NCBI RefSeq assembly: GCF_014854695.1
Contig: NZ_CP027557.1
Coordinates: forward strand, 930,001 to 994,000
Reading direction: 5' to 3'
Length of the DNA: 64,000 nucleotides
DNA from: Rhodococcus rhodochrous
GTDB taxonomy: Bacteria; Actinomycetota; Actinomycetes; Mycobacteriales; Mycobacteriaceae
Shown here piece by piece: positions 7,539 to 24,846 of the stretch. The position numbers and the translations under genes are program-made. The stretch's first letter is position 1. Every line of letters begins with the position of its first letter. A model generated the notes under the pieces. That model saw nothing but the letters and a program-made list of their open reading frames with translations. It searched no databases and had not been told where the DNA came from.

Positions 7539-8229
7539 TCCCGACGTGGTGTCGATTACCTGCCATATGGCCCGGAAGGACGTACATCGAGCAGAAAATC
7601 GGGGGTTGGGCGCGCAGCGGCCTTGGTTGGGTCGCTGGTCCGGTGAAGACTGTGTGCAGGACGACGGCGTCGGCCACGCGTCCCGCCAGGTCGAGCGTGC
7701 GCTCGCCGAGCGCGACCATGAGGATCGGGATGCGGTCGACGTCCTCGGCGGTGCGTCGCAGATACGGGAAGTCGCCGGCTGGGCCGTGCCGGTCGACGAC
7801 TGCGTCACCGCGCCACAGCGTCCGGAGCAGATCGACGGTGTCCTCGAGCCGCGCCGACGTCACGCGAGGCAGACCCATGAGAGCGAACAGCACGTCGAAG
7901 CCGCGGCCGAGCCCGAGGGCGTAGCGGCCGCGGCTCAACCGGTGCAGTGTGGTCGCCATCGTCGCTGTGACGAGGGGATGGCGGGTGTGCGGATTGGTCG
8001 CTGCAGTGCCGATCCCGAGCGTGCGGCTCGTCGCGGCGGCCGCACCGGCCAGCGCTGCCGCGTCCTTGGTGTCGAACCGTTCCGACAGGAAGACCGAGCC
8101 GAGACCGATGCGTTCGGCGACGGCGATCTCGTCGAGCAGCGCCCTCGGGTCGTCGGCGTGCCCGGCGAGGCCGTAGAACCCGAGTTCCGGACAGTCCGGC
8201 TCCGGTACGGATCCGCCGGGGATGCTCAC
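7402..8229 (-). pseudogene. LLM-class flavin/F420 oxidoreductase, truncated at its C-terminus
   Basis: From GTG at 8229 the frame encodes a normal luciferase-like oxidoreductase of the MSMEG_3544-like F420 type: ELGFYGLAGH start, TLGIGTAATNPHTRHP, LSRGRYALGLGRGFDVL and LAGRVADAVVLHTVF. After about 7640 the family similarity stops and the frame continues through sequence belonging to the ars island, finally running antisense to arsR2. About the last third of the usual length of about 290 residues is missing. It is the last gene of the leftward aldehyde dehydrogenase operon; its GTG overlaps the previous stop as GTGA. A functional product is unlikely. Confidence 0.75.
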
Positions 8230-8594
8230 GAGCGGGCCGCCGCCTTCCGTCGCTGCAGCACGCTGCCCACTGCGTTGTCGAGCTTCGAGCCCAGCGGCCA
8301 GCCCACGTAGTGACACAGGAACAGGGCGATCTCGCGGAGCTGCTGCTCGTCGAGTTCCTCGTTCTTCAGCGCCGCTTCGATCTGGATCTCGGCGATGTCC
8401 GGGGCGCCCTGCGCGGTGAGTGCCCCGAGCAGCAGCAGTCGCCGATCACGAATGGTCAGCCCGGGCCGGGTCCAGATGTTCGCGAACAGGTGGTCGGCGG
8501 TGACGGCGAAGTGCTCACCGGGACCGTCCTGCATCTCCCAGCCGTAGACCTTGGACATCATCTCCAGGCCGCGGCGGCGGGTCTCGTCGGTCAT
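8226..8594 (-). CDS. Carboxymuconolactone decarboxylase (CMD)-like protein
   Basis: 122 residues with the AhpD/CMD helical fold: GLTIRDRRLLLLGALTAQG, then EIQIEAALKNEELDEQQLREIALFLCHYVGWP. The AhpD CXXC pair is absent (one Cys only), so peroxidase activity is not expected and the enzymatic role is open. It corresponds in position to Rv0771 of M. tuberculosis, next to the aldA-SDR-dehydrogenase set. It is embedded in an operon with 4-base overlaps on both sides. Confidence 0.8.
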   Translation of the reverse strand: MTDETRRRGLEMMSKVYGWEMQDGPGEHFAVTADHLFANIWTRPGLTIRDRRLLLLGALTAQGAPDIAEIQIEAALKNEELDEQQLREIALFLCHYVGWPLGSKLDNAVGSVLQRRKAAARS

Positions 8595-9490
8595 GCGTGC
8601 TCCTTCCGGGAACGGGTCCGTGCGATCTCTCCCGTGCCGACTCCGAGGCCGGGGCCGAGGTCGGACAGCGCCCGGGCTCCGAGCGGCAGATCGACTCCGA
8701 GGCGATCGCCGAGATCGAGTGCCAGCGCGAGATCCTTCTCACCCAGGGCGCGCACGCGCGAGAAGATCGGGAACCAGGAGTCGTCCTCCGCGAGAGGAGA
8801 TGTGGTGTCGCGCCACATGATCGAACCGGCGCCGCGGGTGATCGCGTCGGTGTGCCGGACGACCTTGCCGAGCTCGGTGATGTCGATGCCCGCGGTCTCG
8901 GCGAGTCGTTGTGCCTCCGTCGCCGCGGTGAACGCGATGAAGTGGAGCAGGTTGCGGGCGAGCTTCATCCGGGTTCCCGCCCCGACGGGACCCGCGTGCA
9001 CGACCAGCGACGCGAAGGTGCCGAACGGTTCCTCGATCTTGGCGAAGCCGTCGTCGGTCGCGCCGACCATCACGGCGAGAGTGCCGTTCTTCGCACCGCC
9101 GGCGCCGCCGCTGACCGGTGCATCGACGAAGTCGACTCCCTTCTCGGCACACTTCGCGGCGAGCTCGACGGCGGTGGTGTCGGAGATCGTCGAGTGCACC
9201 GCGACGACCGTGCCGGGCCGGGCCGTCGCGAGCAGTCCGTTCGGACCGGTGACGACGTCGCGGACCTGGGCGTCGTCGAGGACGGTCACGCACACGAGGT
9301 CGCAGTCGGCGGCCAGCTCCGCCGGGCTCGACGCCGCCGCGGCGCCCTTGTCGGTGAACGGGCTCATCGCCTCGGGCACCACGTCGAGCACGGTGAGGCC
9401 TCCGGGTCGGGTGAGCAACCGCTCGGCCATCGGTGCCCCCATGTTGCCCAGCCCGATGTAACCGACCCGGCCGATCATGGAGTCGGTCAC
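8591..9490 (-). CDS. 3-Hydroxyisobutyrate dehydrogenase-family NAD(P) oxidoreductase
   Basis: 299 residues from GTG at 9490, whose GTGA overlaps the SDR stop; ATG at 9478 is an alternative. N-terminal Rossmann motif VGYIGLGNMGAPMAERL, substrate-binding DAPVSGGAGGAKNGTLAVMVG near residue 125, and the helix MKLARNLLHFIAF holding the expected catalytic lysine. Length is typical of beta-hydroxyacid dehydrogenases. It matches the place of Rv0770 in the M. tuberculosis aldA locus. The substrate, possibly a hydroxylated side-chain fragment, is inferred from context only. Confidence 0.85.
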   Translation of the reverse strand: MTDSMIGRVGYIGLGNMGAPMAERLLTRPGGLTVLDVVPEAMSPFTDKGAAAASSPAELAADCDLVCVTVLDDAQVRDVVTGPNGLLATARPGTVVAVHSTISDTTAVELAAKCAEKGVDFVDAPVSGGAGGAKNGTLAVMVGATDDGFAKIEEPFGTFASLVVHAGPVGAGTRMKLARNLLHFIAFTAATEAQRLAETAGIDITELGKVVRHTDAITRGAGSIMWRDTTSPLAEDDSWFPIFSRVRALGEKDLALALDLGDRLGVDLPLGARALSDLGPGLGVGTGEIARTRSRKEHA

Positions 9491-10236
9491 GAGCGGATCA
9501 CCTGCCCGCCGTCGACGTTGAAGATCTGCCCTGTGACCCAGGCGGCCTCGTCGGAGAGCAGGAACAGGCACATGCCGACGAGATCGTCGGGAGTGCCCAT
9601 GCGCTTGAGCGGCAACTGCTTCACCATGTCGGCGACCATATTCGCGGGGGTGGTGGTGCGGGTCGCCTCGGTGTCGATGGGGCCGGGGGCGATCGCATTG
9701 ATGCGGATGTTCGACCCGCCGAGCTCGACGGCGAGTTGCTGTGTGAGACCGTTGATCCCGACCTTCGCGAGCCCGTAGAAACCCGAGTACAGCCAGGCCG
9801 CCGTCGACGACTGGTTGACGATCGACCCGCCGTTCTTGGTCATGTGCGGCCACACTGCGCGGGTGACGTTGAGGGCGCCGTCGAGGTTCACGCTCATGAA
9901 CTTCTTGTAGTAGTCCCACGGAACCGTCAGCAGCAGATCGAGTTTCATGCCGCCGTAGATGGCGGCATTGTTGACCACGTGGTCGATGCCGCCGTAGGTC
10001 TCGACGGTCGACACGGCGAGTGCCTCGGCGGAGGCGGGGTCGGAGACATCGACCGACGTGAAGCTCGCGATGCCGCCGTCGGCGACGATCTGTTTGGCGA
10101 CCTGCTCGCCGAGTTCGGCATCGATATCGGCGACCACCACGTTCGCGCCCTCGGCGGCGAGCGCACGCGCGTACGCCTCGCCGATCCCCTGGGCGGCGCC
10201 GGTGACGATCGCGGTGCGACCGGTGAAACGTGCCAT
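9487..10236 (-). CDS. Short-chain dehydrogenase/reductase
   Basis: 249 residues, classical SDR. Cofactor motif TGAAQGIGEAYARALAAEGA, NNAAIYG, catalytic Ser in NQSSTAAWLYSGFYGLAKVG with the YXXXK pair, and a C-terminal VTGQIFNVDGGQVIRS. An acidic residue at the end of strand 2 (VVVADIDAELG) favours NAD over NADP. It equals Rv0769 by position. It lies between the aldehyde dehydrogenase and the HIBADH-like enzyme and presumably feeds one alcohol/aldehyde/acid pathway with them. Confidence 0.88.
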   Translation of the reverse strand: MARFTGRTAIVTGAAQGIGEAYARALAAEGANVVVADIDAELGEQVAKQIVADGGIASFTSVDVSDPASAEALAVSTVETYGGIDHVVNNAAIYGGMKLDLLLTVPWDYYKKFMSVNLDGALNVTRAVWPHMTKNGGSIVNQSSTAAWLYSGFYGLAKVGINGLTQQLAVELGGSNIRINAIAPGPIDTEATRTTTPANMVADMVKQLPLKRMGTPDDLVGMCLFLLSDEAAWVTGQIFNVDGGQVIRS

Positions 10237-10262: not shown

Positions 10263-11732
10263 TCAGCTCGCGGGTTCGGCGACGAGCTTGGTCTCCAGGT
10301 ATTCCTCGAAACCGGCCACACCCATCTCGCGGCCGATCCCGGACTGCTTGTAGCCCCCGAACGGGGCGTCGGCGGCGTACCAGATGCCGCCGTTGACGCC
10401 GAGCGTGCCGGTCCGTACACCTGCGACGATCCGCGCGATGCGGTCCGGATCGGTGCCGTACACCGAACCCGAGAGGCCGTAGGGGGAGTCGTTGGCGATG
10501 CGGATCGCGTCGTCGTCGCCGTCGTGAGGGATGATCACGAGCACCGGGCCGAAGATCTCCTCCCGCGCTGTACGCGCGGAGTTGTCGAGGCCGGCGATGA
10601 GGGTGGGTTCGACGAAGAATCCCCGCTCGTGTTCGGCGGGACGTCCGCCGCCGGCGACGATCGTGCCGCCTTCCTCGACGGCGAGGCGGATGAAGCCCTC
10701 CACCCGCTGTCGCTGCTTCTCGGAGATGAGCGGCCCGCACACCGTGCCGGGATCGCGCGGGTCGCCGGGCCGGATGCCGCTCATGGACTTCGCGGTCAGG
10801 GCCACCGCTTCGTCGTACCGTTCGCGGGGAACGAGCAGACGCGTGGTGATCGCGCAGCCCTGGCCGGCATGCGTGCACACGGTGAAGGCCGCCATCGAGC
10901 AGGCGCCGCGCAGGTCGGCGTCGTCGAGGACGATGAACGCCGACTTGCCGCCGAGTTCGAGGAAGACCTTCTTGAGGTTCTCTGAGGCTGCGCGCATCAC
11001 GGCCCGGCCGGTCGCGGTGGAACCGGTGAACGAGATCAGGTCGACGCGCGGATCCTCGCTCAGCTGTGCGCCGAGCCTGTGGTCGCTCGAGGTGACGATG
11101 TTCAGCACTCCCGGCGGGATGTCGGTCTCCTCGGCCGCGATCCGCCCGACCAGGGCCGCACACCACGGGGTGTCCGGGGCGGGCTTGAGCACCACGGTGT
11201 TCCCGGCGGCGAGAGCGGGCCCGAGCTTGGCGAAGTTGATCTGGTGCGGGAAGTTCCACGGCGTGATCGCGCCGACGACCCCGACCGCTTCCTTGAGCAG
11301 ATAGCGGTGGGTGGGGATACCCATGGGGGAGGCGTTGCCGAGATCCTGCGTCCACGCGTAACTTTCGGCGAGGTCGGCGAAGTAGAGCAGATCGTCGATG
11401 GGGCCTTCGAGATGCGCGGCGCTCGTGAGGAATCGGGGAGCGCCGACCTCGGCGATGGTGATCTCCCGCAGTTCCTCGATGTGCTCGCGCAGAGCGTCGC
11501 GCAACTGACGGAGGCAGCGGGCCCGGAAGGCGTGGTCGCGTGACCAGTCGGTGTCGTCGAAGGCGCGACGCGCGGCCGCGATCGCGGCGTCCATGTCGGT
11601 GGCGGTGCCCTCGGCCGCGTGGCCGAGCAGTTCTTCGGTGCTCGGATCGGTGATCGCGAAGGTGCCTCCGCTGCCGGGTACGAGCTTGCCGTCGATCAGA
11701 AGGGCGGAGCTGTCGGTAGGGCGAAGTGTCAT
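10263..11732 (-). CDS. aldA: NAD(P)-dependent aldehyde dehydrogenase
   Basis: 489 residues. The Rossmann segment PWNFPHQINFAKLGPALAAG is followed by FTGSTATGRAVM, the catalytic glutamate region LELGGKSAF and catalytic cysteine in THAGQGCAITTRLLV, then EEIFGPVLVI and the C-terminal FGGYKQSGIGREMG. It is first in a five-gene leftward operon matching Rv0768-Rv0771 of M. tuberculosis (aldA there), divergent from the CYP51 operon. A promoter with an operator shared with the TetR gene at 14757 lies directly upstream. Likely substrate: an aldehyde made by the neighbouring P450s; this is inference. Confidence 0.9.
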   Translation of the reverse strand: MTLRPTDSSALLIDGKLVPGSGGTFAITDPSTEELLGHAAEGTATDMDAAIAAARRAFDDTDWSRDHAFRARCLRQLRDALREHIEELREITIAEVGAPRFLTSAAHLEGPIDDLLYFADLAESYAWTQDLGNASPMGIPTHRYLLKEAVGVVGAITPWNFPHQINFAKLGPALAAGNTVVLKPAPDTPWCAALVGRIAAEETDIPPGVLNIVTSSDHRLGAQLSEDPRVDLISFTGSTATGRAVMRAASENLKKVFLELGGKSAFIVLDDADLRGACSMAAFTVCTHAGQGCAITTRLLVPRERYDEAVALTAKSMSGIRPGDPRDPGTVCGPLISEKQRQRVEGFIRLAVEEGGTIVAGGGRPAEHERGFFVEPTLIAGLDNSARTAREEIFGPVLVIIPHDGDDDAIRIANDSPYGLSGSVYGTDPDRIARIVAGVRTGTLGVNGGIWYAADAPFGGYKQSGIGREMGVAGFEEYLETKLVAEPAS

Positions 11733-11748: not shown

Positions 11749-11795
11749 TCTGGACAGGTGTCTGGACTATAGTTCGGCGACGCGATCGAATGCAA
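11749..11795 (-). promoter_or_regulatory. Promoter of the aldehyde dehydrogenase operon with TetR operator
   Basis: Read on the minus strand: -35 TTGCAT (11790-11795), 18-base spacer, -10 TATAGT (11766-11771), with the operator GTCCAGACACCTGTCCAGA at 11749-11767 starting inside the -10 box. The operator matches the one in front of the TetR gene at 14735-14753 at 18 of 19 positions and sits at the same place relative to its -10 box. Confidence 0.7.
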
Positions 11796-11798
11796 CGG

Positions 11799-11817
11799 TT
11801 CGTCCGAAACGGACGAA
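11799..11817. promoter_or_regulatory. Perfect palindrome upstream of the aldehyde dehydrogenase promoter
   Basis: TTCGTCCG-AAA-CGGACGAA, an 8-bp perfect inverted repeat just upstream of the -35 box. It may be a second regulator site or part of the transcript end of the MpaB-like gene. Confidence 0.35.
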
Positions 11818-11866
11818 ACCGGTGTCGTGTGCGAGGAATTCGACGAATCTCGCACACAACACCGGT
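11818..11866 (-). terminator. Hairpin after the MpaB-like gene
   Basis: An 18-bp stem ACCGGTGTCGTGTGCGAG / CTCGCACACAACACCGGT with one G-T wobble and a 13-base loop, 27 bases beyond the stop at 11893. It separates that gene from the aldehyde dehydrogenase promoter. Confidence 0.7.
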
Positions 11867-11892
11867 CTCGACGAGGGTCCGGTGGTCTCCGG

Positions 11893-12723
11893 TCAGAACA
11901 CGCGCAGTCCGAGGCGTCGCCGCGTGCGCAGATCGAGCAGATAGGACTTCCACAGCAACGGCCATACCCACGGCGTGACGCGGTGCAGGCGCCGGACCGC
12001 CACGAGATAGCGGTCGAAGCGTCGCTGGTCGTCGGCGGTCCACGGGTAGTGCATGAGGTCGCGGAACTCCGGCGGCAGTGCACCGCGGGTGATCAGTTCG
12101 AACGACCTGCCGAGCACCCGGTGGATCCCCCGGCCCAGACGCCCGAGACGCACCTCGAGGAACGCGAGATTGCAGAGTTCGGTGAGATACTCGCGCACCT
12201 GCGCGTTCATGGAGATGTCGGCGACGCCGGCCTTCCACAGTTCCTCGTACTCCTCGCGGGTCGTGGGCCACGACTCCGGCCGGACGTTCAGTGTCGTCGC
12301 GAGGGTCGCGCCGTCGCGGAGGATCCGGGCGTACTGCTCCTCGGTGAGCGGGCCATACAGGAACTCGTGCTGGTCGATGAAGTACTTGAGCAGGCAGACG
12401 GCGACCCACAACTGCAGGGCGGGGGAGTTGGCGCTGTAGCGGACCTCCGCGCCGGGTGACGACGTGACCCGGGCGTGGATCTTCCGTACCGACTCGCGGA
12501 CGAAATCGCGGTCGGCCTCGGTGCCGAACACTGCGACCGCCAGATAGGTGCCGGTCGTGCGGGCCCGCTTGACCGGATGGAGATCGGCGCGGCCGGAGTC
12601 GACCGTGCTGTCGACGACGCCCTGGCCGACGCGGGGATGGGCGAGCTGCATGATGACGTTGGCGGCGTTGATCGTGCCACCGAGCGGTGAGACGAGATCG
12701 CCGAGAGTGTCGATCGTCCGCAT
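11893..12723 (-). CDS. Oxygenase MpaB-family protein (DUF2236)
   Basis: 276 residues, largely helical, with NAANVIMQLAHPRVGQGV near the start, TGTYLAVAVFGTEADRDFV, HARVTSSPGAEVRYSANSPA and SPALQLWVAVCLLKYFID, as in DUF2236 proteins. The family includes fungal MpaB and rubber oxygenases, which use a b-type haem or another metal held by histidines. The substrate is unknown. It lies downstream of a TetR gene on the same strand (46-base gap), so that TetR is its likely regulator. The pair together with the P450 at 13454 appears inserted between the two halves of the CYP51 locus. Confidence 0.75.
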   Translation of the reverse strand: MRTIDTLGDLVSPLGGTINAANVIMQLAHPRVGQGVVDSTVDSGRADLHPVKRARTTGTYLAVAVFGTEADRDFVRESVRKIHARVTSSPGAEVRYSANSPALQLWVAVCLLKYFIDQHEFLYGPLTEEQYARILRDGATLATTLNVRPESWPTTREEYEELWKAGVADISMNAQVREYLTELCNLAFLEVRLGRLGRGIHRVLGRSFELITRGALPPEFRDLMHYPWTADDQRRFDRYLVAVRRLHRVTPWVWPLLWKSYLLDLRTRRRLGLRVF

Positions 12724-12734
12724 GACCCCTCCAT

Positions 12735-12754
12735 CTGAAGACGGACGTGTTCAG
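12735..12754. promoter_or_regulatory. Imperfect palindrome before the MpaB-like gene
   Basis: CTGAAGACGGACGTGTTCAG has arms CTGAAnAC / GTnTTCAG and sits 12 bases upstream of the start at 12723. It could be an operator for a separate promoter of that gene. Confidence 0.3.
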
Positions 12755-12769
12755 TTGATGCGTGCCACT

Positions 12770-13366
12770 CTAGCGCGTCTTCGTGGGGTCGAGGGATGCG
12801 CCGGCCAGAACTCCGCGCACGACCGTCTCGTAGATGTGGTCGAGATCGAGCTCGTCGCCCAGGAAGCCGCTGCTCTGGAGGACCGCGAAACCGTGCAGGG
12901 CCGCGAACATGCCGACCGCGGCCTCGAGCGTCTCCTCCTCCGGAACGCCGCAGGATGCGAGCATCGTGCGCAGAGCGACGTTGGCGTCCAGTGCGGCGGC
13001 GAGCAGACCGTCGCGGTCGACCGGTGCGGTGGTCAGTGCTTCGTAGCGGCGGGGATGTTCGACGGCCCAGGTGTGGTGGGCGTCGATCAGGGCGCGAAGC
13101 CCGTCGACGCCGCTGCGGCCCATCGCGACCTCGCGCAGATACGCCCCGAGATCGCTCATCGCGCGGATCTGCACGGTCGCCCGTACGTCGTCGAGATTGC
13201 GGACGTGGTTGTACAGCGAGGCCGTGACGATTCCCAATCGCGACGAGAGAGTGCTCATCGTGAGCTGTTCCCATCCCAGCTCGTCGACGATCCCGAGCGC
13301 TGCTGCGACGACCTTGTCGCGGGTCAGTGTCCGCCGACGCGCGGGTCGGGAATTGTCGTCTGCCAT
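12770..13366 (-). CDS. TetR/AcrR-family repressor
   Basis: 198 residues. The N-terminal helix-turn-helix spans RDKVVAAALGIVDELGWEQL and STLSSRLGIVTASLYNHVRN (residues about 15-60); the C-terminal ligand domain (HTWAVEHPRRYEALTTAPVD, AALHGFAVLQSSGFLGDEL) resembles TetR_C_33/WHG-type domains. It is divergent from the P450 at 13454 and upstream of the MpaB-like gene, so it probably controls both. A palindrome at 13417-13431 in the shared promoter is the likely site. Confidence 0.85.
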   Translation of the reverse strand: MADDNSRPARRRTLTRDKVVAAALGIVDELGWEQLTMSTLSSRLGIVTASLYNHVRNLDDVRATVQIRAMSDLGAYLREVAMGRSGVDGLRALIDAHHTWAVEHPRRYEALTTAPVDRDGLLAAALDANVALRTMLASCGVPEEETLEAAVGMFAALHGFAVLQSSGFLGDELDLDHIYETVVRGVLAGASLDPTKTR

Positions 13367-13416
13367 GGAAGCAGTCTAAGGGGCTTCCATTCCAAACGAA
13401 GGTGAGTAGTTTATAA

Positions 13417-13431
13417 ACGAATGCCATTCGT
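13417..13431. promoter_or_regulatory. Palindromic operator between TetR and P450
   Basis: ACGAATG-C-CATTCGT is a perfect 15-base palindrome in the TetR/P450 divergent promoter. It contains an ATG (13421) that could be mistaken for the P450 start, and an AT-rich TTTATAAA stretch lies just before it. Confidence 0.6.
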
Positions 13432-13453
13432 ACAATCCCACGAGAGCGGCTTC

Positions 13454-14680
13454 ATGACGACTTCACCCACAGATCTCAAGAACCCCGACGTCTTCGCCCA
13501 GGGGGTCCCGCACGATTACTTCTCCGAACTCCGGCGCACCTGTCCGGTCCACCGCCAACCCGAGGAGGGCGGCGCGGGCTTCTGGGCCGTCACCCGGCAC
13601 GCCGACGTCATCGCGGTCTCCCGCGACAGCGCGACCTTCTCCTCGGCGCTCGGAACCACCCAGATCGACGATTTCGACGAGGAGACACGCCTCAAGCAGG
13701 CGTCCATGCTGCTCAACCTCGACCCGCCGGAGCACACCCGCCTGCGGCAACTCGTGAGCCGAGGGTTCACCCCGCGCATGGTGAAGACGCTCGAGGAGCG
13801 CATCCGGCGAACGTGCGAACGCACCGTCGACGCGGCGATCGAGGCCGCGCGCGACGGCACGGTGATCGACATCGTCCCGGCGATCTCGGCACCACTGCCA
13901 CTGGAGGTGATCGCAGCGCTGCTCGGCGCACCGGCCGAGGACGTCGGGAAGCTGTACGACTGGTCGAACCGCATGATCGGTTGGGCCGACCCCGAATATG
14001 GCACCACTCAGGAGGACGGCGAGCTCGCCGCCGCCGAGATCTTCCTGTACGCCAACGAGATCGCTGCACAACGACGTTTCGAACCGCGCGACGACATCGT
14101 CTCGAAGCTGGTGTGTCCCGACGAGAACGGCGACACGCTGTCCGAGATGGAGTTCGACATGTTCTTCGTCCTGCTCGTCATCGCGGGCAACGAGACGACG
14201 CGCAACGCGATCTCGGGCGGGATGCAGGCGTTCGTCGACCATCCCGAGCAATGGCGCCGGTTGCAGGACGATCCCGGTCTGATCGACAACGCCGTGGAGG
14301 AGATCCTGCGCTGGGTCACCCCCGTGGTGGGCTTCCGCCGCACGCCCACCTGTCCGGCGTCGATCGGCGACCAGCACGTCGAACGGGGCGACAAGGTGAT
14401 CATGTACTACCCGAGCGCGAACCGCGACGAGGAGGTCTTCGACGACGCGCACGTCTTCGACATCGGGCGCGAGCACAATCCGCACGTCGCCTTCGGGGGG
14501 ACGGGTGTGCACTTCTGTCTCGGGGCACATCTGGCGCGGCTCGAACTGCGGATCGTGTTCGAGACCCTCGTTGCCCGTATCGACCGGGTCGAACCTGCCG
14601 GCGAACCGCGGCGGTTGCGGTCGAACTTCATCAACGGCGTCAAGTCCATGCCCGTCCGTATCCACCCACGAGAGCGCTGA
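13454..14680 (+). CDS. Cytochrome P450 (CYP125/CYP124-like group)
   Basis: 408 residues from ATG at 13454 (MTTSPTDLKNPDVFAQG). Helix-I motif AGNETTRNAI near 238-247, ExxR in EEILRW, and haem-binding FGGTGVHFCLGAHLARLEL with the thiolate C355. The stretches LNLDPPEHTRLRQLVSRGFT and LRSNFINGVKSM resemble the steroid/terpenoid hydroxylases CYP124, CYP125 and CYP142, but the subfamily cannot be fixed by eye. An upstream ATG at 13421 lies within a palindromic operator and is rejected. No redox partner is adjacent; the ferredoxin at 18751 could serve. Confidence 0.88.
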   Translation: MTTSPTDLKNPDVFAQGVPHDYFSELRRTCPVHRQPEEGGAGFWAVTRHADVIAVSRDSATFSSALGTTQIDDFDEETRLKQASMLLNLDPPEHTRLRQLVSRGFTPRMVKTLEERIRRTCERTVDAAIEAARDGTVIDIVPAISAPLPLEVIAALLGAPAEDVGKLYDWSNRMIGWADPEYGTTQEDGELAAAEIFLYANEIAAQRRFEPRDDIVSKLVCPDENGDTLSEMEFDMFFVLLVIAGNETTRNAISGGMQAFVDHPEQWRRLQDDPGLIDNAVEEILRWVTPVVGFRRTPTCPASIGDQHVERGDKVIMYYPSANRDEEVFDDAHVFDIGREHNPHVAFGGTGVHFCLGAHLARLELRIVFETLVARIDRVEPAGEPRRLRSNFINGVKSMPVRIHPRER

Positions 14681-14707
14681 ATTCGCCGAATGAACGCGCT
14701 GCGGGCA

Positions 14708-14753
14708 TTGCCGACCCCCTCCAACCGTAGTAATGTCCAGACACGTGTCCAGA
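14708..14753 (+). promoter_or_regulatory. Promoter and operator of the TetR-CYP123-CYP51 operon
   Basis: -35 TTGCCG (14708-14713), 17-base spacer, -10 TAATGT (14731-14736), and operator GTCCAGACACGTGTCCAGA at 14735-14753 whose core GACACGTGTC is a perfect palindrome. It differs from the aldehyde dehydrogenase operator by one base and overlaps its -10 box in the same way. Confidence 0.7.
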
Positions 14754-14756
14754 AAC

Positions 14757-15317
14757 GTGAATCTCGAATCGACCCGTCGCCGCCTGACCGAGAAGCAGGC
14801 CGACACGGTTGCGAGGCTCACGCAGGCCGCGGTCGAGGTGCTCCGCGAGGAGGGATTCACGGGGTTGACGGTGCGTATGGTCGCCGCCCGTGCCGGTGTC
14901 GCCCCGGCCACCGCCTACACCTACTTCTCGTCCAAGGAACACCTCGTCGCCGAGGTGTTCTGGCGTCGCTTGGCCAACGCTCCCACGGCCGACGCCGAGA
15001 GCACGAGCCGTGCCGATCGGGTGGTCGCGGTGCTGAGGGGAATCGCGCTGCTGTTGGCCGACGAACCCGAACTCGCGGCCGCCGTCACCAGTGCACTGCT
15101 CGGTCACGACCCCGATGTCGAACACCTGCGTGCGCGCATCGGACTCGACATCCGTCACCGGATCTCGGCAGCGCTCGGCACCGACTCCGATCCCGACGAA
15201 CTCGAAGCACTCGAACTGCTCTACGCCGGCGCGCTGGTCCGGGCCGGTATGGGCTACGGCACCTACGAGAAACTCGCCGACAGGCTGGAGACATCCGCCC
15301 GACTTCTATTGGAGTGA
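14757..15317 (+). CDS. TetR-family repressor of the CYP51 operon (Rv0767c-like)
   Basis: 186 residues from GTG at 14757. N-terminal helix-turn-helix: LTEKQADTVARLTQAAVEVL, then VRMVAARAGVAPATAYTYFS. An ATG at 14733 is in frame, but it lies within the predicted -10/operator region and before the expected transcription start, so the GTG downstream of the operator is preferred. It heads the rightward operon; its stop is followed 3 bases later by the CYP123-like gene with a GGAG site. I infer autoregulation and control of the divergent aldehyde dehydrogenase operon through the matching 19-bp sites. Confidence 0.85.
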   Translation: MNLESTRRRLTEKQADTVARLTQAAVEVLREEGFTGLTVRMVAARAGVAPATAYTYFSSKEHLVAEVFWRRLANAPTADAESTSRADRVVAVLRGIALLLADEPELAAAVTSALLGHDPDVEHLRARIGLDIRHRISAALGTDSDPDELEALELLYAGALVRAGMGYGTYEKLADRLETSARLLLE

Positions 15318-15320
15318 TCC

Positions 15321-16580
15321 ATGATCCAGGCATCCCCGGGCTCCGCGTCGCACGCAGGGCCCGCTTCGCCCGATCCACCGACGCTCGCCCCCGTGATCTT
15401 CAACCCGTACGACTACGCCTTCCACGAAGACCCGTATCCCACCTACCGCCGCCTCCGTGAAGAGGAACCGGCCTACCACAACCCCGACCTCGGGTTCTGG
15501 GCCCTGTCCCGCCACGCCGACGTCGTCGCGGCCTTCCGCGACAACACCCGGCTCTCGAGCGCCAACGGTGTCTCGCTCGATCCGTCCGCCTACGGGCCCA
15601 ACGCCCACAAGGTGATGTCCTTCCTCGCGATGGACGACCCGCGCCACATGCGCATGCGTCGGCTCGTCTCCAAAGGATTCACTCCGCGGCGCGTCGCCGA
15701 CCTCGAGGAACGCATCCTCGAACTGACCCTGCGCTATCTCGAACCCGCGGTGGAGGCAGGGGAATTCGACTGGATCTCGGAGTTCGCGGGCAAGCTGCCC
15801 ATGGACGTGATCTCCGAACTCATGGGCGTACCCGAATCCGACCGCAGTGAGATCCGCCGCCTCGCCGACCTCGTCGTCCACCGCGAGGAGGGCGTGCTCG
15901 ACGTGCCGGTCGCCGCGATGGAGGCATCGCTGCACCTCGTCGGCTACTACGCCGACATGCTCGCCGAACGCCGGAAGAAGGACACCTCCGACCTCACGTC
16001 GGCGTTGCTGGCCGCCGAGATCGACGGCGACCGGCTCACCGACGACGAGATCATCGGCTTCATGTTCCTCATGGTGGTCGCAGGCAACGAGACCACCACG
16101 AAACTCCTCGGCAACGCCCTCTACTGGGGAGCGCACAACAAATCCGAGGTGGCGCAGGTACTCCGCGATCCCGCTCGCGCACCGCAGTGGGTGGAGGAGA
16201 CCCTCCGCTACGACACTTCGAGCCAGATCGTCGCCCGCACCGCCGTCGCCGACATCGAACTGCACGGCGCCACCATCCGGTCCGGCGACAAGGTACTGCT
16301 GCTCATCGGATCCGCCAACCGCGATTCCGACGTCTTCGACACCGCCGACGACTTCCGCATCGGACGCGACAGCTCCCAGAAGATCGCCAGTTTCGGTGGG
16401 GGAGTGCACTTCTGTCTCGGCGCACATCTCGCCCGCCTCGAGGCGAACATCGCGCTGGAACAGTTCGCCCGGCGCGTCGCCGACTACGAGATCGACGAGG
16501 ACCGCTGTGAACGTGTCCATTCCACCAATGTCCGAGGCTTCGCGGCCCTTCCTGTAGAGGTCACCGAACGACATGCCTAG
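15321..16580 (+). CDS. Cytochrome P450, CYP123-like
   Basis: 419 residues. Helix-I AGNETTTKLLGNAL near residue 254, ExxR in EETLRYD, and haem loop FGGGVHFCLGAHLARLE with thiolate C365. Its place between a TetR and an SDR upstream of CYP51 is that of cyp123 (Rv0766c) in M. tuberculosis, which supports the name; sequence identity was not measured. The substrate of CYP123 is unknown. It overlaps the next gene by 8 bases, so translation is likely coupled. Confidence 0.88.
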   Translation: MIQASPGSASHAGPASPDPPTLAPVIFNPYDYAFHEDPYPTYRRLREEEPAYHNPDLGFWALSRHADVVAAFRDNTRLSSANGVSLDPSAYGPNAHKVMSFLAMDDPRHMRMRRLVSKGFTPRRVADLEERILELTLRYLEPAVEAGEFDWISEFAGKLPMDVISELMGVPESDRSEIRRLADLVVHREEGVLDVPVAAMEASLHLVGYYADMLAERRKKDTSDLTSALLAAEIDGDRLTDDEIIGFMFLMVVAGNETTTKLLGNALYWGAHNKSEVAQVLRDPARAPQWVEETLRYDTSSQIVARTAVADIELHGATIRSGDKVLLLIGSANRDSDVFDTADDFRIGRDSSQKIASFGGGVHFCLGAHLARLEANIALEQFARRVADYEIDEDRCERVHSTNVRGFAALPVEVTERHA

Positions 16581-17358
16581 ATTCGAACCCCATCCCGAAC
16601 GCCGTCCCGCGCTGGTCGCCGGAGCCTCCTCCGGAATCGGTACCGCCACCGCCTACGCGCTCGCCGAGGCCGGGCACCCCGTCGCGCTCGGGGCGCGCCG
16701 CGTGGAGGAGTGCGCGGCGATCGCGGAGAAGATCCGCGGCGAGGGCGGCGAGGCCTTCGCCCACTTCCTCGACGTGTCGTCCACCGAATCCGTCGGCGAG
16801 TTCGTCGCCGCGGCCGAGGAGGCCCTCGGCCCCGCCGAGATCGTCGTCTCGGGAGCGGGCGACATGGATTTCGCGTTGCCGCACGAGATGGATCCCGACC
16901 GGTTCGCCTTCCAGGTGAACGTGCACCTGATGGGCACGCAACGTCTGGCCCATCGTGTGCTGCCCGGCATGATCGACCGGAAACGCGGCGACTTCGTCGT
17001 GATCGGATCCGACTGTGCCGTGCTTCCCCGGCCCTGGATGGGTGCCTACAACGCCGCCAAGACCGGCCTCGAAGCGCTCGTCCGCGAGATGCGGATGGAA
17101 CTCGAGGGTACGGGTGTCCGCGCATCGGTCGTGCGCCCAGGGCCGACGCAGACCGGTGCCGGCATGACCGCGCCGGCGGAGGTCCTCGAACCGATGCTCG
17201 AGGACTGGGGCACATGGGGTTTCGCCCGACACCCCTACTTCCTTCGTGCATCCGACATCGCCGCGGCCGCGCTCTCGGTCGTCTCGGCCCCCCGCGGCGC
17301 CCACATCGTGCTCATCGAGGTTCAACCCGAAGCGCCCCTGCGGAAGGACAATCCATGA
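16573..17358 (+). CDS. Short-chain dehydrogenase/reductase (Rv0765c-like)
   Basis: 261 residues. Cofactor motif AGASSGIGTATAYALAEAG, VVSGAGDMDFALPHEM in place of the usual NNAG, catalytic YNAAKTGLEALVREMRMEL with YXXXK, and Ser in VVIGSDCAVLPRPWMG. It lies between CYP123-like and CYP51 exactly as Rv0765c does. It may oxidise or reduce a carbonyl/alcohol produced by one of the P450s. Its TGA overlaps the CYP51 ATG. Confidence 0.88.
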   Translation: MPRFEPHPERRPALVAGASSGIGTATAYALAEAGHPVALGARRVEECAAIAEKIRGEGGEAFAHFLDVSSTESVGEFVAAAEEALGPAEIVVSGAGDMDFALPHEMDPDRFAFQVNVHLMGTQRLAHRVLPGMIDRKRGDFVVIGSDCAVLPRPWMGAYNAAKTGLEALVREMRMELEGTGVRASVVRPGPTQTGAGMTAPAEVLEPMLEDWGTWGFARHPYFLRASDIAAAALSVVSAPRGAHIVLIEVQPEAPLRKDNP

Positions 17359-18743
17359 CCACACTCGTCGAGCCCCGGCGTGTGTCCGGCGGCGAACACG
17401 AACACGGCCACCTCGAGGAACTGCGCACCGATCCCATCGCGCTCATGCGCCGGGTACGTGAGGAGTGCGGCGACGTCGGGGTCTTCCAGCTCGCCGACAA
17501 GAAGGTCGTACTACTCTCCGGTGCGGAGGCCAACGAGTTCTTCTTCCGTGCCGCGGACGAGGATCTCGACCAGCAGGCCGCCTATCCGTTCATGAAGCCG
17601 GTCTTCGGTGAGGGCGTCGTCTTCGACGCCAGCCCCGAACGCCGCAAGGAGATGCTGCACAACTCGGCGCTGCGTGGCGAACAGATGCGGGGCCACGCGG
17701 CGACCATCGACCGCGAGGTGCAGGACATGGTCGCCGGCTGGGGCGACGAAGGCGAGATCGACCTGCTCGAATTCTTCGCCGAAATGACGATCTACACGTC
17801 GTCGGCCTGCCTGATCGGCAAGAAGTTCCGCGACCAGCTCGACGGACGATTCGCCCACCTCTACCACGACCTCGAGAAGGGCACCGACGCACTGGCCTTC
17901 GTCGATCCCTACGCGCCGATCGAGAGTTTCCGGCGACGCGACGAGGCCCGCCGCGGACTCGTGGCACTCGTGCAGGAGATCATGGACGGACGCATCGCGA
18001 ACCCGCCGCAGGGCAAGGAGGACCGCGACATGCTCGACGTCCTCGTCTCCATCAAGGACGAGGACGGCAAGGAACGGTTCAGTGCCGACGAGATCACCGG
18101 CATCTTCATCTCGATGATGTTCGCCGGCCACCACACCACCTCCGGCACGGCGGCCTGGGCGCTCATCGAACTGCTGCGCAACCCCGAGTACATGCAGCAG
18201 GTCACGGCAGAACTCGACGTCCTGTACTCCGACGGTGAGAGCGTGAGCTTCCATGCACTGCGGCAGATCCCGGTGCTCGAAGCGGTGCTCAAGGAGACAC
18301 TACGCCTGCACCCGCCGCTGATCCTGCTTCTTCGGGTCGCGCGCGATGACTTCGAGGTCGCCGGATACCGGATCTCGGAGGGCGATCTCGTGGGTGCGAC
18401 ACCGGCGATCTCCAACCGGATCCCGGAGGACTTCCCGGATCCCGATGCCTTCGATCCCGGCCGCTACATCGACCCCAATCAGGAGGACATCGTCAACCGG
18501 TGGACCTGGATTCCGTTCGGGGCGGGTCGGCACCGCTGTGTGGGAGCGGCGTTCGCGCTCATGCAGCTGAAGGCGATATTCTCGGTTCTGCTGCGCGACT
18601 TCGAGTTCGAACTGTCCCAGCCGCCCGAGACCTACCGCAACGACCACTCGAAGATGGTGGTCCAGCTCGAACAGCCGTGTGCTGTGCGGTACCGACGTCG
18701 CACCCGGGCGGCGTCCGGCACCGGCACAGCGACGCAGGAGTGA
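17355..18743 (+). CDS. cyp51: CYP51 sterol 14-alpha-demethylase
   Basis: 462 residues. CYP51 hallmarks: helix-I AGHHTTSGTAAWALIEL starting at residue 257, the ExxR KETLRLHPP, and haem motif FGAGRHRCVGAAFALMQLK with thiolate C395. It is followed 7 bases later by a small ferredoxin, the conserved redox partner arrangement of mycobacterial cyp51 (Rv0764c-Rv0763c). Known CYP51 enzymes remove the 14-alpha methyl of lanosterol-type sterols in three oxidations, yet nothing else here suggests sterol synthesis; a catabolic or modifying role on environmental sterols is more plausible given the downstream cholesterol oxidase. Confidence 0.95.
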   Translation: MTTLVEPRRVSGGEHEHGHLEELRTDPIALMRRVREECGDVGVFQLADKKVVLLSGAEANEFFFRAADEDLDQQAAYPFMKPVFGEGVVFDASPERRKEMLHNSALRGEQMRGHAATIDREVQDMVAGWGDEGEIDLLEFFAEMTIYTSSACLIGKKFRDQLDGRFAHLYHDLEKGTDALAFVDPYAPIESFRRRDEARRGLVALVQEIMDGRIANPPQGKEDRDMLDVLVSIKDEDGKERFSADEITGIFISMMFAGHHTTSGTAAWALIELLRNPEYMQQVTAELDVLYSDGESVSFHALRQIPVLEAVLKETLRLHPPLILLLRVARDDFEVAGYRISEGDLVGATPAISNRIPEDFPDPDAFDPGRYIDPNQEDIVNRWTWIPFGAGRHRCVGAAFALMQLKAIFSVLLRDFEFELSQPPETYRNDHSKMVVQLEQPCAVRYRRRTRAASGTGTATQE

Positions 18744-18750
18744 GGTTCGG

Positions 18751-18945
18751 ATGAGGATCGAAGCAGATCTCGATCTGTGTCAAGGACACGCGATGTGCTC
18801 GATGGAAGCCCCGGACGTCTTCGCCGTCGCCAAACGGGGTGAGGTGGAGGTCCTCCTCGATCCCGTGCCGGAGGAGATGCATGCCGACGTACGAGCAGCT
18901 GTGAAGTACTGCCCCACCCAAGCCCTTCGCATCGTCGAAGACTGA
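18751..18945 (+). CDS. Small [3Fe-4S]-type ferredoxin, CYP51 partner
   Basis: 64 residues. Cysteines C10 and C16 in DLCQGHAMCSMEAPDVF and C54 in KYCPTQALRI fit the CxxHxxC...CP pattern of actinobacterial 3Fe-4S ferredoxins, where histidine or another residue stands in place of one Cys. It most likely passes electrons to CYP51 and perhaps the other P450s. No ferredoxin reductase is encoded nearby. It matches Rv0763c by position and size. Confidence 0.92.
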   Translation: MRIEADLDLCQGHAMCSMEAPDVFAVAKRGEVEVLLDPVPEEMHADVRAAVKYCPTQALRIVED

Positions 18946-18960
18946 GGACCAGGAGACAGG

Positions 18961-19512
18961 ATGGCCACGTTCGATCGTGCCGAGCTCGACGAGATGATCA
19001 CCCGCTGGGTCGACGCCAACAAGCGCGCCGAGGCCGAAGGCGACTGGAAGCCTTTGGCCGACATGTACACCGAGGACGCCACCTACGGCTGGAACTACGG
19101 CCCGAAGGACGAGTTCATGGCCGTGGGACGCGAGGAGATCCGCGACCTCGCGCTGGGCCAGGAGATGGACGGGCTCGAAGGCTGGCAGTATCCCTACCAG
19201 CAGTTCGTCGTCGACGACCGCTCCGGCGACGTGATCGGCTTCTGGAAGCAGATCGCCGACAGGACCCGCGAGAACGGCGAGCACTACGCGGTGCACGGTA
19301 TCGGCGGGAGCTGGTTCCGGTACGGCGGCAACTTCCAGTGGTCGTGGCAGCGCGACTTCTTCGACTTCGGCAACGTCTCGCACCTGTTCCTCGAGATGAT
19401 CACGGCGAACGCGCTCTCCGACGGCATGCAGAAGCGGATCGAACGGTCTACGGGGAAGAAGCGGCTCCCCGGTTGGTACCGGGTCGGCGAGTCGCCGGTT
19501 CCGTTGTGGTGA
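18961..19512 (+). CDS. NTF2/SnoaL-like protein (Rv0762c-like)
   Basis: 183 residues with a SnoaL/NTF2-type cone fold: WVDANKRAEAEGDWKPLADM, YTEDATYGWNYGPKDEFMAVG, REEIRDLALGQEM and a beta-rich YPYQQFVVDDRSGDVIGFW. Such folds bind or isomerise steroid- and polyketide-like ligands, but no ketosteroid isomerase active site could be assigned. It follows the ferredoxin by 15 bases, with an AGGAGACAGG ribosome site, and its TGA overlaps the next GTG. Confidence 0.72.
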   Translation: MATFDRAELDEMITRWVDANKRAEAEGDWKPLADMYTEDATYGWNYGPKDEFMAVGREEIRDLALGQEMDGLEGWQYPYQQFVVDDRSGDVIGFWKQIADRTRENGEHYAVHGIGGSWFRYGGNFQWSWQRDFFDFGNVSHLFLEMITANALSDGMQKRIERSTGKKRLPGWYRVGESPVPLW

Positions 19513-20762
19513 CCGGCGTGGACACCGGCGGATCGTTCGCCGCGCTCTCCCGCACCGCTCTCGCTGTGCTCGTCCCCGAACTGTTGCTGTGCGGTCAGCT
19601 CATCGACCGTTCGGGGATGGCGCATCTGATCTCGGCATTCGGTCGGGAGGGCATGGCGGAGGTGGCCATCGAGGAATGGCAGGCGTCCTCACCGTGGTAC
19701 ACGCGCCGCATGCAGCGTGCCCTGAAGTTCGAAGGCGACGACGTCGTCACGATCTTCAAGGGCATGCAGCTCGACATCGGGGCGCCCCCGCAGTTCATGG
19801 ACTTCCGTTATCGCGTCCACGACCGCGACCACGGCGAGTTCTGGCTCGACCACTGCGGGGCGCTGATGGACGTCGAGCCGCTCGGCGACGCCTACGTGAC
19901 CGCGATGTGCCACGACATCGAGGACCCGACCTTCGACGCCACCGCGCTCGCCACCAATCCGCACGCCCGGGTCCGGCCGATCCATCGGCCGCCCCGTGCG
20001 CCGGCCGACCGGCACCCGCACTGCGCGTGGACGGTCACGATCGACTCCTCGTACGACCCACCGGCTGTCGAACCGCACACCGAAGCGCTCGGCCGGACCG
20101 CGGCCGTGGCACTCGAGCTGAGCCCGATCGACCACGATGGAGAGGGGAGACACGACTATTCGGGTCCCCTCCTCGCAGACCTCCGGTTCGACGAGTTCTC
20201 GAAGCCGGCCCTGGTACGCATCGCCGAGGAGGTGTGCCTGCAGCATCACCTGCTCGCTCTCGGCTTCCTCATGAGTGTGCGCAAACGAACCGACGAGCAG
20301 TCTGCGATCGAGCTGACCCGCAAGCAACTCACGGGTATCGCCGGCATCACGTCCGAGCGCATCCGTACCGCGCTGGGATTGCCGCGCTCGTTCGCCGGCC
20401 TGTCGGTGGTGCTCGATGTACACCCGATGCTGGCACCGGACCGGTATGTCGATCGGGTGATCTGTTTCGACGACGCGCTGGGTCTCCGGATCAATCGGCG
20501 AGGTGGCGCCTTCGACGACGGGTCCTGGCCCACCTTGATCGACGCCGAACACCTCGGCCCGCTCGACGCCCTGGTGCGCGGTGTGGACCCGCACTTCACC
20601 ACCCGCCTGGTCTCTGCGACCGACGAGGCTCTCGTCGTCGAGGTGTTCCGTGACGAATCCCCGGCGAAGGAGTGCGACGAGGTCGCCATCACGCGCTTCA
20701 GTACGGGTTCGTCCTTCGTCTTCGAAGATCGGGGAATCCCCCTCCCGCTCACCGTTGTCTGA
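19509..20762 (+). CDS. Conserved protein of unknown function in the CYP51 operon
   Basis: 417 residues from GTG at 19509 (GTGA overlap with the previous stop). I do not recognise a catalytic motif. Notable parts are FKGMQLDIGAPPQFMDFRYRV, GEFWLDHCGALMDVEPLG and HDIEDPTFDATA, an H-rich central block (PIHRPPRAPADRHPHCAW), and a C-terminal half that seems to repeat the fold of the first. No signal peptide or membrane helix is visible. It lies between the NTF2-like protein and cholesterol oxidase and presumably acts on sterols or their products. Confidence 0.65.
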   Translation: MTGVDTGGSFAALSRTALAVLVPELLLCGQLIDRSGMAHLISAFGREGMAEVAIEEWQASSPWYTRRMQRALKFEGDDVVTIFKGMQLDIGAPPQFMDFRYRVHDRDHGEFWLDHCGALMDVEPLGDAYVTAMCHDIEDPTFDATALATNPHARVRPIHRPPRAPADRHPHCAWTVTIDSSYDPPAVEPHTEALGRTAAVALELSPIDHDGEGRHDYSGPLLADLRFDEFSKPALVRIAEEVCLQHHLLALGFLMSVRKRTDEQSAIELTRKQLTGIAGITSERIRTALGLPRSFAGLSVVLDVHPMLAPDRYVDRVICFDDALGLRINRRGGAFDDGSWPTLIDAEHLGPLDALVRGVDPHFTTRLVSATDEALVVEVFRDESPAKECDEVAITRFSTGSSFVFEDRGIPLPLTVV

Positions 20763-20784: not shown

Positions 20785-22362
20785 GTGAATAGTGCGCTGT
20801 CCCGCCGTACCTTCCTGCGGGGAACCGTCGTCGGCGGTGCGGCCGTTGCCGCGTTGTCGTTGTCCCCGATCCCACGCGCACGCGCCGAGGTCACCGAGGA
20901 GCGCCATCGGGCGGTCGTCGTGGGCAGCGGATTCGGCGGTGCGATCACCGCGCTGCATCTCGGCCGGGCCGGTGTGCAGACGCTCGTCCTCGAACGTGGG
21001 ATCCGCTGGCCCACCGGGCCGAACGCCGAGACGTTCCCTCACATGCTGCAACCGGACCGGCGGATGTCGTGGTTGTCGCCCGCCCCGGTGATGACCGGTA
21101 CTCCGCCGATCCCGACCGAACCGTTCACCGGGCTCATCGAACGGGTTCCGGGGAACGGTATGGACGTCATGTGCGGCGCGGGGGTCGGCGGGAGTTCGCT
21201 GGCCTATCACGGCATGACCGTGCAACCCGACGGGCAGCGATTCTCCGATTCGGTGTCCTCGCGTATCGACTACGACCTGCTGGCCTCCGACCACTATCGG
21301 CGGGTGGCACGGGTGCTGAGGGTCGCGACCATTCCGGACGATCTGCTCGACCACGATCGGTACCGGTCCTCACGCCAGTTCCTGGACCGTGCAGGTTCGC
21401 AGGGCTACGACACCTTCAGAGTGCCGATGTGCATCGACTGGGACTTCGCGCGACGGGAGCTGACCGGGGAACTGAAACCGTCCTACACGACGGGCGACGT
21501 CATCTACGGAGTCAACAACGGCGGTAAGTTCTCGGTCGACGTCACCTATCTCGCCGAGGCGGAACGCACGGGGCACGTCACGGTCGCGCCGCTGCACCGG
21601 GTCGGCGACATCGAGCGTGCTCCGGACGGCACCTGGATCGTGCACGTGGACCGGATCCACACGGACGGAATGGTTCTCGAACGCAAGCGGATCCTCGCAC
21701 AGTCGCTGTTCCTCGGTGCCGGATCGGCCGGCACGACCCGTCTCCTCGTGAAGGCGAAGGCGAAGGGGCTCGTCCCCGATCTTCCCGACGGCGTCGGAAC
21801 GGGATGGGGCAACAACGGCGACCGGGTGTTCGCCGTGACGAGCCCGCTCGTCAGTCCCGGCGACCATCAGGGCGGGCCCGCCTGTGTGGGTATGCGCGAC
21901 TACACCGATCCCGCCGGCCCGTTGATGATCGTCACCGGCCCGGTGCCGTTCCCCGTCGATGTGGGAACGACCACGATGATCGGTCTGGGGATCGTCGACG
22001 GCCGAGGAGTCTGGCACTACGACGCCGGCCGCGACGATGCGGTCCTGAACTGGGATCAGGCCTACGACCGGGAACTCACCCGCGCCATCGAGGCCCGCAT
22101 CCGGCGGATCGCGGGACCGGCCTCGATCGTCGTCGACGTCAACGCCGTCGACATCAACACCTTCCATCCGCTCGGTGGTGCGCCGTTCGGGACGGTGTGC
22201 GACGACGCCGGTCGCGTGCACGACCAGCCCGGCCTGTATGTGGTGGACGGCGCGAAGATTCCGGGATCGACCGGGGCGTGCAATCCGTCGATGACGATCG
22301 CGGCGCTCGCCGAGTACGGCGCCGATCGGATCGTCTCTCGCGACCTGGATCGCGTGTTCTGA
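20785..22362 (+). CDS. Tat-exported cholesterol oxidase (GMC flavoprotein)
   Basis: 525 residues from GTG at 20785. The N-terminus LSRRTFLRGTVVGGAAVAAL is a twin-arginine signal with an ARA-type cleavage site near 34. FAD-binding VVGSGFGGAITALHLGRAG follows near residue 45, GAGVGGSSLAYHGM near 132, and the C-terminal active-site blocks FHPLGGAPFG (catalytic His) and GSTGACNPSMTIAALAE (catalytic Asn) match the GMC cholesterol oxidases of Streptomyces and Rhodococcus. It oxidises 3-beta-hydroxysterols to 3-keto-4-ene steroids with H2O2 formation, outside the membrane. It is the last gene of the CYP51 operon (22-base gap), followed by a hairpin. Confidence 0.9.
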   Translation: MNSALSRRTFLRGTVVGGAAVAALSLSPIPRARAEVTEERHRAVVVGSGFGGAITALHLGRAGVQTLVLERGIRWPTGPNAETFPHMLQPDRRMSWLSPAPVMTGTPPIPTEPFTGLIERVPGNGMDVMCGAGVGGSSLAYHGMTVQPDGQRFSDSVSSRIDYDLLASDHYRRVARVLRVATIPDDLLDHDRYRSSRQFLDRAGSQGYDTFRVPMCIDWDFARRELTGELKPSYTTGDVIYGVNNGGKFSVDVTYLAEAERTGHVTVAPLHRVGDIERAPDGTWIVHVDRIHTDGMVLERKRILAQSLFLGAGSAGTTRLLVKAKAKGLVPDLPDGVGTGWGNNGDRVFAVTSPLVSPGDHQGGPACVGMRDYTDPAGPLMIVTGPVPFPVDVGTTTMIGLGIVDGRGVWHYDAGRDDAVLNWDQAYDRELTRAIEARIRRIAGPASIVVDVNAVDINTFHPLGGAPFGTVCDDAGRVHDQPGLYVVDGAKIPGSTGACNPSMTIAALAEYGADRIVSRDLDRVF

Positions 22363-24795: not shown

Positions 24796-24809
24796 TGTAA
24801 CGCGTTCTA
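24796..24809. promoter_or_regulatory. KstR-type operator palindrome
   Basis: TGTAACGCGTTCTA fits the KstR consensus TnnAACnnGTTnnA at every fixed position and lies in the divergent promoter between the LLM gene and a KstR-like TetR gene. Confidence 0.65.
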
Positions 24810-24827: not shown

Positions 24828-24846
24828 TTCCGGACACCTGTCTGAT
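24828..24846. promoter_or_regulatory. Weaker match to the TetR operator of the CYP51 locus
   Basis: TTCCGGACACCTGTCTGAT shares the exact core GACACCTGTC with the aldehyde dehydrogenase operator at 11749-11767, with degenerate flanks. It sits 19 bases from the KstR-type palindrome in the same promoter. Confidence 0.35.

Follow-up and report, generated by a model that had tools for sequence, protein, structure and literature searches.

A conserved palindrome points to a probable TetR regulon joining the CYP51 and aldehyde dehydrogenase operons of Rhodococcus rhodochrous

Background

A palindromic motif, named motif X, has been predicted in Mycobacterium sp. VKM Ac-1817D for G155_05115, the orthologue of Rv0767c; as described there (PMC6593523, 2019), the motif is found at 14 operons, 12 of which are raised more than 3-fold by phytosterol, a copy lies near the start codon of the regulator, and the targets include cytochromes P450, alcohol and aldehyde dehydrogenases, short-chain dehydrogenases (SDRs) and a putative steroid isomerase. 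For Rv0767c of M. tuberculosis, a motif is reported in Table 2 of PMC4482099, with an E value of 1.2e-14, in the less significant class of that paper, and the interaction sites of the protein are described as enriched in GAC and GTC (PMC10312376). AcuR of Rhodobacter sphaeroides is, according to PMC3017554, an autorepressing TetR-family regulator, encoded by the first gene of its operon on a leaderless mRNA. The present analysis concerns a 64,000-nt stretch of the Rhodococcus rhodochrous genome (positions 930,001 to 994,000 of contig NZ_CP027557.1, hereafter the window, within a genome of 6,088,302 bases), where two nearly identical 19-mers, O1 and O2, precede an aldehyde dehydrogenase (ALDH) operon and an operon containing a TetR gene and CYP51. 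They are very probably operators of the TetR protein encoded at 14745-15317, which would control both operons, as well as the promoter containing a third site, O3.

The locus resembles the motif X regulon, as described in PMC6593523, in its TetR-family regulator, in the palindrome, in the kind of targets and in the site found near the start codon of the regulator itself. It differs in extent, since 14 operons are involved there, whereas here three strong sites fall within about 13 kb, with a weak one upstream. Motif X is published as a figure, and its likeness to the 19-mer is one of description, not letter by letter; the available portions of that text mention neither a start codon at the operator centre nor the Rhodococcus gene order. 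The sites share with those of Rv0767c the abundance of GAC and GTC (PMC10312376). As in the case of AcuR (PMC3017554), a TetR-family regulator heads its own operon, autorepression and leaderlessness being predicted here; the AcuR operator, in contrast, is described as lying upstream of the ATG, whereas here the start codon would form the operator centre, and the pathways are unrelated. Among the literature matches listed, from a collection which leaves most subscription journals outside its coverage, no paper on this regulon in Rhodococcus was found.

Results

Operators and promoters in the window

O1, GTCCAGACACCTGTCCAGA, is located at 11749-11767 on the minus strand, in front of the ALDH operon, while O2, GTCCAGACACGTGTCCAGA, lies at 14735-14753 on the plus strand, at the start of the TetR gene. 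As claimed in the first-pass annotation, made from the letters of this stretch, the two are identical at 18 of 19 bases, and both promoters lend the last two bases of their -10 box to the operator. The ALDH promoter, TTGCAT-18-TATAGT, has its -35 box at 11790-11795 and its -10 box at 11766-11771 (minus strand); the TetR promoter, TTGCCG-17-TAATGT, has them at 14708-14713 and 14731-14736 (plus strand), so that the plausible -35 boxes proposed at 17-18 bases are also found. Both promoters are kept in the genus: GAACTATAGTCCAGACA, with TTGC at the position of the -35 box, is present in all the 17 ALDH loci, and TGCC plus GTAGTAATGTCCAGACAC, including the -10 box, in all the 14 distinct TetR rows.

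When up to 3 mismatches are allowed, O1 and O2 are the only matches to the 19-mer within the window, against a mean of 0.03 in the shuffled window, no shuffle of which contained two. The whole genome adds a single match, with 3 mismatches, on contig 2 (L003), within coding sequence by our reading.

A TetR dimer bound to these sites would cover the -10 box and the start region of the two promoters. The promoter of the regulator itself would drive the genes for TetR, a P450, an SDR, CYP51, a ferredoxin, a SnoaL-like protein, an unassigned protein and a cholesterol-oxidase-like protein, the other one the operon for ALDH, SDR, a 3-hydroxyisobutyrate-dehydrogenase-like (HIBADH-like) protein and a carboxymuconolactone-decarboxylase-family (CMD) protein. 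Release would be brought about by a ligand, most likely a sterol or an isoprenoid alcohol, aldehyde or acid on which these enzymes act. It is improbable that the protein activates, instead of repressing, the ALDH operon: the overlap of both operators with the -10 box and the region just downstream is a place for steric repression, and TetR proteins are often repressors, as stated in PMC4482099.

Conservation of the sites and co-occurrence with TetR

Conservation of the 19-mer in related genomes, named as a check in the first-pass annotation, was found, and its absence is ruled out. The family was covered by 151 genomes: of the 98 which have a close TetR, 94 carry a strict site, compared with 2 of the 53 lacking one. 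Within the genus, a strict scan of 18 genomes returned 56 forward matches, versus 11 for the reversed control, and all 17 Rv0768-type ALDH loci fetched carry the site; of 10 genus genomes, G098 alone lacks the TetR, and it has neither an Rv0768-type ALDH over the cut-off nor a site. The residues A55 T56 A57 Y58 T59 Y60 F61 of the helix-turn-helix are invariant in 40 TetRs.

For a more detailed analysis, a scoring matrix was derived from 35 sites near TetR starts, among 41 TetR hits, and a threshold of 14 bits was adopted; 38 regions were picked by hand in such a way as to spread over genera, not as a random draw, and two of them (L082 and L098), which had few or no genes at first, were re-predicted with the gene model of the window. 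A site of at least 14 bits was found at 35 of 37 TetR and 26 of 28 ALDH starts. In the same regions, no site was found at the starts of the genes inside the ALDH operon (SDR1, 0 of 26; HIBADH, 0 of 25; CMD, 0 of 27), nor at those of the SnoaL-like (0 of 25) and 418-aa unassigned (0 of 23) proteins. CYP123 (4 of 26), SDR2 (3 of 25) and CYP51 (3 of 27) have a site only in regions with changed gene order (L073, L080, L084, L088, L094, L095 and L096), two of which, L094 and L095, have a P450 directly after TetR, yet with a site of its own. Sites were also found at 3 of 12 starts of the LLM oxidoreductase gene, which follows O3 in the window, at 1 of 5 glycosyltransferase (GT) starts, 2 of 11 starts of the methyltransferase (at window 1461) and 16 of 360 starts of unlabelled genes. 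Sixty permuted matrices gave on average 0.2 TetR and 0.13 ALDH matches, versus the real 35 and 26, although one of them reached 12 and 7.

The exact 19-mer was searched in 84,980 species genomes, from which records identical or very near to the window were possibly excluded. It was found in 111 stretches, for a total of 116 sites, 107 of which are placed at the starts of relatives of the TetR, of ALDH, of a P450 or of a GT operon: 41 at ALDH plus TetR, 27 at the GT operon, 20 at ALDH, 16 at TetR and 3 at ALDH plus CYP123. The remaining 9 comprise 8 sites in unrelated taxa, where about 7 chance matches are expected from a calculation over both strands of 257 billion bases with 18 fixed positions, and a last one (L270) interrupted by the edge of its locus.

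Some of these data weigh against the proposed regulon, or reduce its support. The count at TetR starts is partly circular, the matrix having been built on such sites, while the ALDH count is not; two of the 28 ALDH and two of the 37 TetR starts have no site at 14 bits, one of these ALDH genes (L071) being at the region edge; four genomes with the TetR have no strict site, and two have a strict site and no close TetR; finally, the sequences compared are related, hence not independent. O2, moreover, in part overlaps coding sequence, as would be expected from a coding constraint. O1, however, lies clear of the ALDH gene and is conserved to the same degree, and the 0.03 matches expected in the window, together with the results of the permuted matrices, of genome co-occurrence and of the placement of the exact 19-mer, leave chance similarity or coding constraint a negligible probability. 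The idea, already put forward in the first-pass annotation, of a single TetR regulon joining the ALDH and CYP51 operons is therefore supported by comparative genomics, from which we infer binding and repression.

A probable TetR start codon within the operator

The TetR gene had been annotated as starting at 14757, which is probably wrong. TetR relatives were examined as rows, identical surroundings being counted once: 105 rows show an operator close to the start, and for 6 further TetR hits no site reaches 14 bits. In 57 of the rows the operator lies within about twelve codons, and in all of these the central triplet of the operator is GTG (49) or ATG (8), in frame, with no intervening stop. 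From the operator centre to the conserved part there are between 2 and 12 codons, always a whole number; in 31 of these rows no later start codon is available. In the other 48 rows, where the operator is more distant, it is in frame in 10. Since an in-frame start is found at the centre in all 57 rows, 31 of them without a later one, TetR most likely begins at GTG 14745-14747, the centre of its own operator.

The T and the G of this codon belong to the conserved TGTC, whereas its first base is the free one, and the only difference between O1 and O2 falls on that base. At the same position, the ALDH operators of the genus have CTG in 14 and GTG in 3 of 17 cases, which suggests that, within the genus, the needs of a start codon may be the reason for the one-base difference. 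GTG 14745 comes only 8 nt after the -10 box, and no Shine-Dalgarno-like stretch is found; because of this short distance from the -10 box to a start codon at the operator centre, the tetR mRNA is probably leaderless, and it is predicted to be self-repressed. A repressor bound at tetR would mask the -10 box, the point where transcription starts and the initiation codon, all together.

Two observations count against such a role of the central codon. Outside the genus, the best sites preceding ALDH are mixed at the centre (11 CTG, 11 GTG, 4 ATG, 2 TTG and 2 siteless, for a total of 30), several of these sites being common to ALDH and TetR; furthermore, the window offers GTG 14757 as another in-frame start. 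The same operators and repressor might thus coexist with a TetR starting at GTG 14757, or at ATG 14733, after a short leader, and the overlap of codon and operator would then be accidental. Like the window, the 13 other genus rows have GTG 14757 in frame. ATG 14733, also in frame, falls within the -10 box, and several relatives, such as L070, have another sequence in its place. The lack of any later start in over half of the 57 rows, and the constancy of the frame despite a distance varying by whole codons, also make this alternative unlikely compared with a start at GTG 14745.

In Gordonia and Williamsia loci (among them L091, L100 and L101) one operator is common to both divergent genes, and an apparent remnant half-site with a start codon (ATGTCCAGT) persists at the TetR start. 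A shared operator, spaced as in the Williamsia loci, is also present in L245, a record named Kitasatospora arboriphila, whose TetR/ALDH locus is 64 and 75% identical to that of the window; either transfer or contamination may account for it.

The third operator and KstR

A third core, noticed at 24833-24842 in the first-pass annotation, is indeed present, within the 18-mer O3 (TCCGGACACCTGTCTGAT, 24829-24846, plus strand), which scores 21.4 bits with the TetR-start matrix and is conserved in all 9 genus genomes examined. In the strict scan of 18 genomes, G151, G153 and G156 showed two strict matches each, O3 not being seen, and contig ends may explain it. O3 is located in the promoter of a putative operon on the minus strand, composed of an F420-dependent LLM oxidoreductase (23918-24763; TIGR03619, 248.4 bits, cut-off 166.9) and an FAD-binding protein (22432-23895; NF005512, 947.2 bits, cut-off 812). 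About 20 bp away from O3, a KstR-type box, TGTAACGCGTTCTA (24796-24809, plus strand), is kept in the same 9 genomes; it is the only match in the window to TNNAACNNGTTNNA, which we take to be the KstR box consensus. The LLM/flavoprotein promoter may therefore answer to two TetR proteins, the regulator from 14745 acting through O3.

Because of these neighbours, other owners of the sites have to be considered: a second TetR (TetR2, 12770-13366), a KstR-like TetR (24927-25610), or KstR itself. The two TetR genes are near, and O3 adjoins the KstR-type box. TetR2, however, was labelled in just 5 of the 38 regions, where the sites are nearly universal, and the window scan revealed no KstR box at O1 or O2, which sets them apart from the KstR regulon. 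The TetR at 24927-25610, divergent from the LLM gene, is a relative of KstR, but its identification as KstR was rejected, its score with the NCBIfam model being 196.7 bits versus a cut-off of 280; a protein over that curated cut-off (332.9 bits) is encoded elsewhere, at C1:588532, and a box of its own lies about 110 bp upstream of it. As the presence of the site follows the 14745 TetR across the 151 genomes, ownership by any of these regulators is very improbable. The present circuit shares with the KstR regulon the TetR-family control of sterol genes and the KstR-type box beside O3, and differs from it in the operator.

Genes of the two operons

The first gene of the ALDH operon, transcribed from the minus strand, encodes an aldehyde dehydrogenase (10263-11732; TIGR04284 aldehy_Rv0768, 921.7 bits, cut-off 775), whose start at 11732 is preceded by GAGGG. 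It is followed by an SDR (9487-10236; PF13561), the HIBADH-like protein (8591-9490; PF03446 and PF14833) and the CMD protein (8226-8594; PF02627).

On the plus strand, the TetR protein (14745-15317) contains the TetR_N DNA-binding domain (PF00440, 56.2 bits, cut-off 24). Next comes a cytochrome P450 at the CYP123 position (15321-16580): its P450 family matches fall below the curated cut-offs, and the CYP123 label, proposed in the first-pass annotation, follows from gene order only. An SDR oxidoreductase (16573-17358; PRK07775, 433.2 bits, cut-off 260) precedes the sterol 14-alpha-demethylase CYP51 (17355-18743), the label of which agrees with the match to PDB 1e9x (Rv0764c; E 8e-240). The ferredoxin reading frame (18679-18945; PF13459) probably has its true start further in. 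The SnoaL-like protein (18961-19512) is a weak assignment (PF12680, 24 bits versus a cut-off of 27), and a PDB search gave no match up to E 0.01. The protein at 19506-20762 is a conserved one of 418 aa, of unassigned family, with no Pfam match and 23 labelled relatives in the 38 regions; it is kept in the CYP51 operon of many genera. The last gene (20785-22362) encodes a GMC oxidoreductase: its earlier label was cholesterol oxidase, and a cholesterol-oxidase-like nature is supported by PDB matches (4u2l, E 3e-85), but the score with the NCBIfam cholesterol oxidase model is 77 bits versus a cut-off of 850.

Between O1 and O2, the segment 11893-14680 contains an MPAB/Lcp protein, the second TetR-like protein and another P450. 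In many other genera among the 38 regions the ALDH and TetR operons are back to back, without these genes; in L080 the TetR2-P450 pair is found at a different place.

Limits of the regulon

Two looser patterns produced 41 and 156 strand-matches in the genome, versus 46 and 290 for the reversed control, thus no excess beyond the strict sites, and no further regulon members are therefore claimed. A match at 7142 of the window was dropped as too weak (12.0 bits). A fourth strict site of the genome, C1:3108781-3108798 (L065 8781-8798), was set aside, being located about 230 bp upstream of an apparent 16S rRNA gene, recognised by eye; this palindrome is possibly an element of an rRNA leader. Outside the TetR locus, its letters recur once in G135 and once in G152.

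A site of 11 bits (C1:928365-928382), 1.6 kb upstream of the window, precedes the GT operon, and reaches at least 11 bits in 5 of 9 genus genomes; it is a possible member of the regulon. The operon, formed by GT, methyltransferase and hydrolase-like genes, extends to position 1459 of the window. In mycobacteria, strong sites accompany this operon, and a related TetR often adjoins it.

Discussion

The circuit described here is of a kind already predicted in mycobacteria; the Rhodococcus case adds a probable correction of the gene start, a confirmed third site and, in this genus, a possible reason for the one-base difference. By gene numbers, the surroundings of Rv0767c in M. tuberculosis are similar, with Rv0764c (CYP51), Rv0766c (CYP123) and Rv0768 (ALDH) as neighbours, in a gene order which we presume to follow the numbering. 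The corresponding arrangement, CYP123, SDR and CYP51 adjoining and an Rv0768-type ALDH operon near, is found in the window and kept in many of the 38 regions.

Some data argue, on the other hand, against a simple correspondence. The mycobacterial TetRs found in synteny are only about 50% identical to the 14745 TetR and form a long-branch clade, whereas a TetR about 70% identical is found beside the GT operon. Five genomes of genus g29 (G029, G052, G099, G112 and G147) have two such TetRs each: the one at the CYP51 locus is about 50% identical, and the other, about 70% identical, adjoins the GT-methyltransferase operon, which has strong sites. The tree was obtained by a quick method from 50 hand-picked sequences out of 113 distinct ones, with no bootstrap and Rv0767c not included. 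Because of the 50% identical syntenic clade and of the closer TetR at the GT locus, one-to-one orthology with Rv0767c is uncertain.

A broader picture can be proposed tentatively, at somewhat less than even confidence: a repressor translated from a leaderless mRNA, the start codon of which coincides with the dyad of the repressor's operator, with -10 box, transcription start and codon hidden at once, reading frame and palindrome constraining each other throughout the family; and a dedicated regulator of actinobacterial CYP51, which would share a promoter with a KstR-type circuit.

Actinobacteria considered to make no sterols retain CYP51, an enzyme whose role in nature is unclear. With its operator well defined, its regulator named and its regulon small, the circuit offers a direct handle on this question, since the ligand which releases the repressor points to the pathway: if the proposed circuit is true, the inducer should show on what substrate bacterial CYP51 acts in nature. 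A start codon placed at the centre of the operator, besides correcting the annotated start of the TetR gene, would provide a clean example, open to experiment, of a regulatory palindrome and a reading frame locked together.

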